From Mariprofundus ferrooxydans PV-1 (GTDB lineage Bacteria > Pseudomonadota > Zetaproteobacteria > Mariprofundales > Mariprofundaceae): a stretch of DNA of 64,000 nucleotides. Under the pieces are notes generated by a model, which worked only from the letters and a program-made list of their open reading frames with translations, made no database searches and was not told where the DNA came from. A program made the translations under genes and the position numbers. The stretch lies in NCBI RefSeq assembly GCF_000153765.1, contig NZ_DS022295.1:1056622-1120621 (forward strand), read 5' to 3'. Each line of letters opens with the position of its first letter. The stretch's first letter is position 1. Positions 58,346 through 61,166 of this stretch are shown piece after piece.

Positions 58346-59221
58346 CTACTCACGATCTTCAGGTTGACCGGCCCAGTTCAGCTTGCTTCTGAGCACTTCA
58401 AAATAGTGACGATGAGGCAGATAGACCAGAGAGATACTCTCTCCCTTGCGCACGACAACCCGGTCCCCTTCCTCTACCTTGAGCAATTCGATACCGTCCA
58501 GATTCACTGCGGCTTCTACCTGTGACTCGACCAGACGCAGCTGGATCACATCATCTGCCGGCACGATAATCGGCCTGTTAGACAAGGTATGCGGGCAGAC
58601 AGGTACCACGCTGATCGCCTGAATTTCCGGATGCACAATCGGGCCGCCGGCAGAGAGTGCATAGGCGGTGGAGCCGGCAGGGGTAGCCAGAATCAAACCG
58701 TCGGCCCGCATGCGGAATACAAACTGCTCACGCACAGCCATCTCGAAGCAGATCAGTCGAGGATGCGCGCTGCGCTCGAGCACTACATCATTCATGGCGA
58801 TCCCTTCAGCGCGCTTCTCATCGCCGCGCCAGACTTCTGCATGCAGGGAGAAGTGGCGTTTTGTCTTCAGGTTGCCTGCCAGAATATCATCAACCACGTC
58901 AAACATACTGCCTACCGGCGTATCGGTCAGAAAACCGAGACGTCCCAGATTGATACCGAGAATCGGCGTATCTGAATTCATAAAGTGGCGGGCGGCATGC
59001 AATAGCGTACCGTCACCGCCGAGCACAATCATCAACTCCACCTTGTCAGCCATCTCGCCAATCGGCAAGCGTTCACTGGCTATATTGCAATGAGTACACT
59101 GATGCAGGTGTTCATCAATATATACAGTACACTGCCTTTCAATCAGCCAGCGATGCAGTTCGCACATCAGTTTACAGGCACGCTCGTCATTAGGCTTGAC
59201 GGTGATACCAATGCGATTCAT
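58346..59221 (-). CDS. nadK: NAD kinase
   Basis: Makes NADP from NAD, supplying the reductant for biosynthesis. The 291-aa product starts MNRIGITVKPNDERA and has VLGGDGTLLHAAR (GGDG), INLGRLGFLTD, then LATPAGSTAYALSAGGPIVHP and the last domain with VNLDGIELLKVEEGD. The ATG at 59221 follows AAGGATGCG and overlaps the stop of the dihaem cytochrome gene by 4 nt, so the two are translationally coupled. Confidence 0.96.
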   Translation of the reverse strand: MNRIGITVKPNDERACKLMCELHRWLIERQCTVYIDEHLHQCTHCNIASERLPIGEMADKVELMIVLGGDGTLLHAARHFMNSDTPILGINLGRLGFLTDTPVGSMFDVVDDILAGNLKTKRHFSLHAEVWRGDEKRAEGIAMNDVVLERSAHPRLICFEMAVREQFVFRMRADGLILATPAGSTAYALSAGGPIVHPEIQAISVVPVCPHTLSNRPIIVPADDVIQLRLVESQVEAAVNLDGIELLKVEEGDRVVVRKGESISLVYLPHRHYFEVLRSKLNWAGQPEDRE

Positions 59222-59514
59222 CTGGACGCATCCTTCCAGTCTTTCGGCTGGACATGACACTGAAAACACTGGCCGCCCTTGATGTGACCCTTCGGTTGCG
59301 GGCGCATGCCTTTAACGCCGTGACACTCCATACACCGCTGCGTTTGACCTTTTTTCAGGTGGGCAACAGCAAGGTGAGTTTCATCATTAGGCACATCCTT
59401 GGTCGTGCGCTCGCTGGTACCGAGCACCAGCACCAGGACAACCGTCGCAACAATCGCCAAGAAAACGGCATCGCGCTTACCCGGCCGCCATGATTGCTTC
59501 TGTCCGTTACTCAT
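59218..59514 (-). CDS. Membrane-anchored dihaem c-type cytochrome
   Basis: 98 aa: a Lys/Arg-rich cytoplasmic start, one membrane helix (about residues 16-32) that also serves as signal anchor, then a periplasmic part with two CXXCH haem sites, CMECH (61-65) and CFQCH (83-87). The spacing of 18 residues between them and the absence of other domains resemble small multihaem cytochrome modules. Its partner is unknown. It is the first gene of a cytochrome-nadK-recN group and may feed a respiratory chain in an iron- or sulfur-oxidiser. Confidence 0.85.
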   Translation of the reverse strand: MSNGQKQSWRPGKRDAVFLAIVATVVLVLVLGTSERTTKDVPNDETHLAVAHLKKGQTQRCMECHGVKGMRPQPKGHIKGGQCFQCHVQPKDWKDASR

Positions 59515-59827: not shown

Positions 59828-59918
59828 GAGACTCATTATTAAACTACTGGTTCCAACTTATGTATGCTGGCAGCATATCTCGATATATTGATTTTGATGT
59901 ACCAGGGTGGTGATCAAC

Positions 59919-61166
59919 ATGAGCCAGTCACTTTCATTTGCACGGCACGGCGACAAACTTAACTCCGAATTTTTCGAAGAATATCTGGTCAAACTACTCG
60001 AAGAGCGCGACCGCTCGGGGCTGACCGACAATATCCATGAAATCGACGCCATTATGCTCACCGTCGATCCGGGACGCTCGATCAGCTATATCGCTGAGCT
60101 CGCCCTGATGACGCCCTATCATTATCTGGTAACTCTGGAGAGCGAAAGTCACTGGACGCATGTCCTGCGCATCGATATGAATTCGCCCGACTTCCTCGTG
60201 CGCGAGGTGAAGGACCCGAATACCCGAGGCATATTTCGCAGCCTCAACGAGGTCTACCCGATAGGCCGACACAAGCCCAACAGCCGCTATATGGGCGAAA
60301 TTCTGCGCGTCAATGACCTGCACAATGTCGTGCAGTGCCAGCAGGAGCGCGAATTCCGCTTCTTCACCCGGGACGAAGTCCGCAAGCTGGAGATGCCGGA
60401 CAACCTCGCTATCAGCAAACCATCACCCTACACGCATAACATCGTCGGCTACATGGAACGCCAGCCCGGCCAGCTGCGAACCTATGCCCTCGGCACCAGC
60501 ACCATCCGCGATGATGTGCAGGAGGCTTATCTGGCTGCCAAACAGGCACAGAGCGAGCTGGGCATCGACAAGCTCATCCTGCCCATCGACCACCTCGCAA
60601 CAAGGGTCTACAGCCAGAATCGCGAGGTTGCCATCCTCGAATACCTCTCCCTGTCGAGTTACTACTACTGGGGCTCCTACAATATCGCGGATCAGAACTC
60701 ATCGACCAACGTGACCAAGAGTGTGCATTACGAAAACGAGAGGCACAGCCCTGCCAAGGTATTCACTGCCAACAACACGCCCTATTTCGTCAACCACCTG
60801 GAGAAGCTGCCCTCGCCGACTGAAACCTTCGTTCGCAACTACGGCCCGCGCCTGCACCATCTTGCCGTCGCGGTCAGTGATGAGGCATCGGAGCGGGATC
60901 AGGGTGGACTGGACAATATCGATTTCGTGGTCAGCCAGATTGCATCGCAGGGACGCAACTTCCTGCTCGACGTCATCGGCTCCAAGGAAGACGGTCTGAA
61001 ACAGATCTTCTCCAGCGCATCGGAGCACTCCTCGCTAATCATCGAATACGTGCAGCGATTCGGCGATTTCGACGGCTTCTTTACCAAGGACAACGTTGCC
61101 GAGCTCACTCATGCAGCCGGCGTCGAGGAAGAACTGCTCGGACTGCAGGCCGACTCGAAGGCGTAA
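59919..61166 (+). CDS. VOC-fold protein similar to 4-hydroxyphenylpyruvate dioxygenase
   Basis: 415 aa from the ATG at 59919 (preceded by GGTGGTGATCAAC; a GTG 12 nt upstream is an alternative). The C-terminal half shows the vicinal-oxygen-chelate pattern of HPPD. The three probable metal ligands are His225 in PIDHLATRV, His314 in LHHLAVAVSD and Glu376 in LIIEYVQRFGDFDGFF, the same order and context as in HPPD (DHxxxNV, HHxA, LEIIQR). The N-terminal half (1-200) is not recognisable as HPPD. It stands alone without tyrosine-catabolism genes. The substrate is unknown; HPPD-like dioxygenase, hydroxymandelate-synthase-like or a new member are all possible. Confidence 0.65.
   Translation: MSQSLSFARHGDKLNSEFFEEYLVKLLEERDRSGLTDNIHEIDAIMLTVDPGRSISYIAELALMTPYHYLVTLESESHWTHVLRIDMNSPDFLVREVKDPNTRGIFRSLNEVYPIGRHKPNSRYMGEILRVNDLHNVVQCQQEREFRFFTRDEVRKLEMPDNLAISKPSPYTHNIVGYMERQPGQLRTYALGTSTIRDDVQEAYLAAKQAQSELGIDKLILPIDHLATRVYSQNREVAILEYLSLSSYYYWGSYNIADQNSSTNVTKSVHYENERHSPAKVFTANNTPYFVNHLEKLPSPTETFVRNYGPRLHHLAVAVSDEASERDQGGLDNIDFVVSQIASQGRNFLLDVIGSKEDGLKQIFSSASEHSSLIIEYVQRFGDFDGFFTKDNVAELTHAAGVEEELLGLQADSKA

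Follow-up and report, generated by a model that had tools for sequence, protein, structure and literature searches.

HPPD-like VOC proteins associated with the ATP-grasp/alpha-E/transglutaminase/Anbu system: possible accessory oxygenases

Main finding

A stretch of 64,000 nucleotides from Mariprofundus ferrooxydans PV-1 (the window) was analysed, which contains the gene of a VOC protein. The family of this protein is very probably associated with the ATP-grasp/alpha-E/transglutaminase/Anbu system. The protein is best explained, with moderate confidence, as a non-heme Fe(II) enzyme of the 4-hydroxyphenylpyruvate dioxygenase (HPPD)/hydroxymandelate synthase (HMS) type, which would carry its metal only in the second of two VOC domains and would serve as an accessory of the system. 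The link to the system is strong. For the chemistry, we infer that the enzyme contains iron, uses O2 and acts on a 2-oxo acid, and the nature of its substrate and its being active in the window organism are likewise inferred.

The gene and its family

The coding sequence (59919..61166, plus strand) starts with an ATG at 59919 and its stop codon ends at 61166, yielding a product of 415 amino acids (aa); an alternative GTG start at 59907 would add four residues. The assignment is based on the ORF, on 60 aligned homologues and on the dN/dS values of 0.057-0.082 in comparisons with zetaproteobacterial orthologues. These values show that the window copy is under purifying selection, and decay of the gene was thereby ruled out. 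The neighbouring genes encode an NAD kinase, a ClC channel, RecN and S6, and thus the original prediction was right that no gene of tyrosine catabolism is near. Its view of an apparently autotrophic organism also fits, since Zetaproteobacteria are the closest relatives that bear a name. A 98 aa ORF with two CxxCH motifs (59218-59514, minus strand) is oriented divergently to the VOC gene; it resembles a small multihaem-type cytochrome and had no Pfam match.

Direct sequence searches of Pfam, NCBIfam and the PDB did not yield any match to the VOC protein, and a profile of the 60 family members did not match any PDB entry either. A weak similarity to Glyoxalase_4 (PF13669), which belongs to the VOC superfamily, was found in 25 of the 60 members, but none of these matches was significant (best E-value 0.017), and the Pfam search did not reveal this domain in the window protein itself.

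Scanning a single genome for each species uncovered 142 stretches encoding members of the family, and 80 loci with 68-89% identity were kept. Their hosts are Zetaproteobacteria, sulphur-oxidising and methane-oxidising Gammaproteobacteria, Methylophilaceae and Gallionella. The distribution is patchy, the gene being present in 4 of 61 genomes of a sample of relatives and in 6 of 398 genomes of a phylum sample. The alignment of the 60 homologues is shallow (Neff about 1.65), with a mean column identity of 79%, and a search for distant relatives in the 398 genomes retrieved close ones only, indicating that the family is narrow. Collections of phages and plasmids did not contain any match, and therefore a phage or plasmid gene was ruled out. 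In a phylogenetic tree the zetaproteobacterial copies clustered together inside the Gammaproteobacteria, and the copies of Methylococcaceae were intermixed with those of Methylophilaceae, which suggests lateral transfer of the gene and is consistent with its lateral acquisition by the Zetaproteobacteria. In Methylomicrobium sp. wino1 (locus L067) the homologue is distributed over two ORFs of 155 and 180 aa, and thus a frameshift or a pseudogene is possible there.

Predicted fold and metal site

The C-terminal half is homologous to HPPD. In a comparison with a profile of 15 true HPPDs, using the HPPD L120 as reference, hhalign placed residues 221-396 of the VOC protein on HPPD residues 167-352 with a probability of 85% and a pairwise E-value of 5.9e-6. 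The strength of this match depends on the settings, as others gave E-values of 0.0026 and 0.0009 and probabilities of 11-23%, while the alignment of the C-terminal half was unchanged. As a control, the real C-terminal half scored 31.9 at one setting, compared with 10.7-21.3 for 20 column-shuffled versions. The C-terminal VOC module was delimited to residues 216-400 (60564..61118, plus strand) from the alignment with the HPPD catalytic domain and from a structural model, in which it extends from strand beta220-229 to strand beta373-380; it is weaker in a second model (see below).

H225, H314 and E376 had been proposed to form the metal triad of HPPD, and these positions turned out to be correct. 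All three are invariant in 60 of 60 aligned homologues, and in the profile alignment they fall on the iron site of HPPD. The predicted ligand H225 (codon 60591..60593), in the first strand of the module, is aligned with H165 of L120 (IDHLTHNV). H314 (60858..60860), which follows the invariant H313 at a position that is Gln in HPPD, corresponds to H243 (QHIA), and E376 (61044..61046) within IIEYVQR corresponds to E322 within FFEIIQR. The invariant residues Q362-I363-F364 (61002..61010) are aligned with the conserved QIF strand of HPPD (Gln379/Phe381 in Arabidopsis); all these codons are on the plus strand. The end of the protein, NVAELTHAAG, had been called HPPD-like as well, and indeed it was aligned with the C-terminal GNFKALFE helix of HPPD.

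An AlphaFold model (pLDDT 73.8, pTM 0.79) comprises two VOC modules, and the predicted ligands sit on the expected strands 220-229, 312-319 and 373-380. The N-terminal module (residues 39-190; 60033..60488, plus strand), in which no metal ligands were recognised, has the predicted VOC order beta-alpha-beta-beta-beta in residues 39-97, followed by residues 125-180. Its predicted elements are beta39-49, alpha54-64, beta68-74, beta78-84, beta91-97, beta125-131, alpha134-143 and beta175-180, and with the exception of the loop 101-123 the pLDDT is mostly 77-96, above that of the C-terminal half. The best 50 PDB matches obtained with Foldseek were all HPPD or HMS, covered the whole chain (best E-value 6e-13) and did not include any non-metal VOC family. 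A model of the divergent homologue L080 was poorer (pLDDT 67.5) and left the last C-terminal module unfolded, and again HPPD and HMS accounted for all of its best 50 matches (best E-value 7e-7). The protein is thus predicted to be an HPPD-like two-domain VOC fold in one chain.

The first 200 residues had been described as unfamiliar. This is true for the sequence, as no similarity between the N-terminal half and the HPPD profile was detected (E-value 0.095), but a foreign domain is not predicted, and an unrelated domain was ruled out by the AlphaFold model. In HPPD the N-terminal VOC domain is metal-free. Because of the two modules in the model and the whole-chain Foldseek match, the N-terminal half is most likely the same degenerate, metal-free first VOC domain. 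Metal-dependent catalysis by the VOC protein is very probable, and HPPD-type oxygenation is probable.

A ligand set of two His and one Glu is also found in extradiol and glyoxalase-type enzymes. A metal-dependent VOC enzyme that serves the same system with another chemistry, e.g., an extradiol-type ring cleavage or the reaction of a redox-neutral isomerase, lyase or hydrolase, was therefore considered. Many chemistries are possible on the VOC fold, the triad is common to these enzymes, and the substrate residues of HPPD are lost (see below). The best 50 structural matches of both models were nevertheless all HPPD or HMS, and the QIF...E-x-x-QR motifs and the C-terminal helix are HPPD-like, which makes this explanation rather unlikely.

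Differences from HPPD

The VOC protein shares several features with HPPD (TIGR01263) and HMS, i.e., two VOC domains per chain with H/H/E in the second, the QIF strand, the E-x-x-Q-R motif, the C-terminal helix and the top Foldseek matches. It differs from them in an identity of only about 8-16% in structure alignments and in the lack of a match to the family HMMs. The positions of Arabidopsis HPPD were assigned by motif and spacing, via L120 and a substrate-bound structure (PMC6750108). The network Glu394-Gln379-Asn423 of the inactive state is preserved as E376, Q362 and N392, and Phe381 and Asn282 are preserved as F364 and N292. In contrast, Gln307 is changed to His313, Gln293 to Pro300 and Phe424 to Val393. 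P300 (codon 60816..60818, plus strand) is aligned with Q228 of L120, and both Pro300 and His313 are invariant among the 60 homologues. In the plant enzyme, Gln293 and Gln307 belong to the network of hydrogen bonds to the substrate, and the exchange Gln293Ala reduced the efficiency about 3700-fold and Gln307Ala about 99-fold (PMC6750108). As these two positions are occupied by Pro300 and His313, 4-hydroxyphenylpyruvate is unlikely to be the substrate; judged from the alignment, the iron-binding half of the active site is preserved and the aromatic-substrate half is not.

It could be argued that the protein is a true but divergent HPPD or HMS for aromatic 2-oxo acids, as the fold match spans the whole chain and the triad as well as N292, Q362, F364 and N392 are aligned with HPPD residues. 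Against this stand the lack of sequence matches in Pfam, NCBIfam and the PDB, the invariant Pro and His at the positions of Gln293 and Gln307, and the gene neighbourhood of the family, which is a peptide-ligation system and not tyrosine catabolism. In addition, a search of the window genome with TIGR01263 did not reveal any HPPD. A true HPPD or HMS is thus very improbable. A new dioxygenase or another use of the fold had been suggested from the sequence, and the first part of this idea stands insofar as the protein is probably not HPPD itself; the link to the system described below had been missed, because this context is invisible in the window.

Linkage and co-occurrence

The VOC gene was called at 84 loci, comprising the homologues and the window locus. 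At 57 of them a gene for an ATP-grasp, alpha-E, transglutaminase, DUF2126 or Anbu protein is located within 6 kb, often in the same operon, and at 41 it directly adjoins the VOC gene. The median gap between the VOC gene and its neighbour was 54 bp in 44 same-strand pairs. Typically, genes for ATP-grasp, alpha-E and transglutaminase precede the VOC gene, which is followed by the gene for Anbu or for a transglutaminase-DUF2126 protein of 1100 aa. The neighbours were identified by the Pfam domains CP_ATPgrasp_1/2, Alpha-E, Bact_transglu_N with Transglut_core, DUF2126 and Proteasome, and Anbu additionally by matches to the solved Anbu structures 5loy and 5nyj in the PDB, with E-values down to 4.6e-66. 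The linkage occurs in many lineages among the relatives, but the VOC gene is unlinked at the window locus and in 27 of the 84 loci. A VOC relative was sought beside the core operons of gene-negative genomes and was not found. At the methanotroph loci L025, L031, L067 and L080-L084 the VOC gene lies away from the core, and different conserved genes surround it (clusters 33-37; 18-20, 24-29).

The Anbu operon was reportedly described by Valas and Bourne in 2008 and by Iyer et al. in 2009. In two structural papers it is given as four genes, encoding ATP-grasp COG2308, alpha-E COG2307, a transglutaminase and Anbu, and no dioxygenase or glyoxalase member appears in the descriptions there (PMC5666114, PMC6376114). 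This is a difference from the present loci. In most of them the VOC gene is flanked by the core genes of the operon, which the window genome contains as well. A peptidase activity of Anbu itself was not shown (PMC6376114).

The association was also apparent at the genome level. For this analysis 36 gene-positive genomes were used, most of which had been picked because the system was absent near the VOC gene, the others being controls. Alpha-E was detected in 35 of them and in 205 of 392 gene-negative genomes of the phylum sample (p = 9e-9, phylogeny ignored); the only exception was the metagenome-assembled genome G401. DUF2126 was found in 31 of the 36, compared with 8 of 57 gene-negative relatives (p = 3e-12, phylogeny ignored). 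When the comparison was confined to the 41 relatives up to the same order, the four gene-positive genomes all belonged to the nine with alpha-E (p = 0.001, phylogeny ignored), and the only three genomes with both DUF2126 and Anbu were all gene-positive (p = 0.0004, phylogeny ignored). Several gene-positive genomes, including G402, G403, G428 and G432, contain second DUF2126 copies, which match the profile mainly between positions 338 and 826, are encoded by ORFs of about 710-850 aa and are a shorter variant of DUF2126.

An incidental association, caused by a shared mobile region or lifestyle, with the VOC enzyme having an unrelated function in nitrogen limitation, would be in line with the 27 unlinked loci, the unlinked window locus and the lateral transfer suggested by the tree. 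It is highly unlikely in view of the many lineages in which the gene sits in the operon at a short distance from its neighbours, the presence of alpha-E in 35 of 36 gene-positive genomes even when unlinked, and the promoter type in common (see below).

In the phylum sample alpha-E is present in 211 of 398 genomes and the VOC gene in 6, and hence the VOC gene is missing from the majority of genomes that have the system, showing that it is optional. An optional gene and an extreme conservation (79% mean column identity) would fit a protein with many contacts, and alpha-E likewise is a partner that does not look like an enzyme. The metal site might thus be structural or sensory, and the VOC protein a non-catalytic partner or regulator of an ATP-grasp/alpha-E complex. 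The invariance of the triad and of second-shell HPPD residues exceeds the needs of a scaffold, however, and this explanation is quite improbable.

Regulation

VOC copies without a same-strand core gene before them were defined as leaders. A sigma-54 -24/-12 element was present within 120 bp of 36 of 58 leader copies (mean of 1.4 and maximum of 4 in shuffled sequences), but only before 1 of 21 copies inside operons. With a score of at least 10 of 12, such an element also preceded 19 of 28 ATP-grasp leader genes, compared with 6 of 138 other leader genes. A palindrome similar to NtrC sites, GCACN5-7GTGC, was found at 9 of 47 VOC leaders (0.9 in shuffled sequences) and 11 of 28 ATP-grasp leaders (0.6 in shuffled sequences), in contrast to 3 of 128 other genes. 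According to published work, expression of the core operon depends on NtrC in Burkholderia cenocepacia (PMC5491218), and in Pseudomonas putida the operon is induced when nitrogen is limiting (PMC7801951, PMC8050072).

The window genome encodes RpoN, and its core operon has the sigma-54 element TGGCATGATCGTTGCT at L104:7911. Neither a sigma-54 element nor an NtrC-like site was found upstream of the window VOC copy. An inverted repeat, TATGCTG-G-CAGCATA (59863-59877), is located about 42 bp upstream of its start codon and may be an operator in this copy without a sigma-54 site.

Discussion

It seems reasonably likely that the VOC protein is an Fe(II) oxygenase of the 2-oxo-acid type that modifies a product or substrate of the system under nitrogen limitation. 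According to this model, nitrogen limitation would lead to activation of the ATP-grasp/alpha-E/transglutaminase system by NtrC and sigma-54. The ATP-grasp and DUF2126 amidoligases would make an amide-linked, peptide-like product, and the transglutaminase-like and Anbu enzymes would cleave or swap amide bonds. Fe(II) held by H225, H314 and E376 would bind a substrate or product bearing a 2-oxo acid in a bidentate manner, and reaction with O2 would result in oxidative decarboxylation and hydroxylation of this compound.

Both the fold and the operon have been described before. Pfam and NCBIfam do not contain a model of the VOC family, in spite of the 142 stretches found in a single scan. Outside Iyer et al. 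2009, the main analysis of these operons, a literature search did not uncover any paper that joins an HPPD-like or VOC enzyme with an Anbu-type system. The presence of a VOC gene in the Anbu gene set of other organisms thus points to a putative, unreported oxidation step that is added to the system. That the family represents an undescribed group of Fe(II)/2-oxo-acid oxygenases acting as accessories of the Anbu/ATP-grasp/alpha-E system is proposed tentatively, at slightly less than an even chance.

Knowledge of the Anbu operon dates back to 2008, yet we are aware of no substrate or product. The system is widespread, judged from alpha-E in the phylum sample, and it is nitrogen-regulated. As its active site can be recognised, an oxygenase would offer a chemical handle on the system, accessible through measurements of O2 uptake, of mass shifts and of a dependence on 2-oxo acids. 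If the proposal is true, cells starved for nitrogen use the system to make a small metabolite or tag of peptide-like nature, which is oxidised by the VOC enzyme, and the system is not confined to protein degradation. The question is testable, as Methylophilus, Methylovorus, Methylobacillus and Methylomonas are cultured models.

In the window genome (G000) the core genes for ATP-grasp, alpha-E and transglutaminase are located at C3:987.9-991.5 kb (L104:7878-11475), beyond the window. The distance to the VOC gene is about 125 kb, and the VOC enzyme would have to partner this distant operon. A search of the genome did not reveal Anbu or DUF2126, so the enzyme would be limited to the three-gene core, or to something else. 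Directly after the core transglutaminase gene lies a gene for a GGACT/AIG2-like gamma-glutamyl cyclotransferase (PF06094; L104:11541-11999, about 991.5-992.0 kb on C3), which hints at gamma-glutamyl chemistry.
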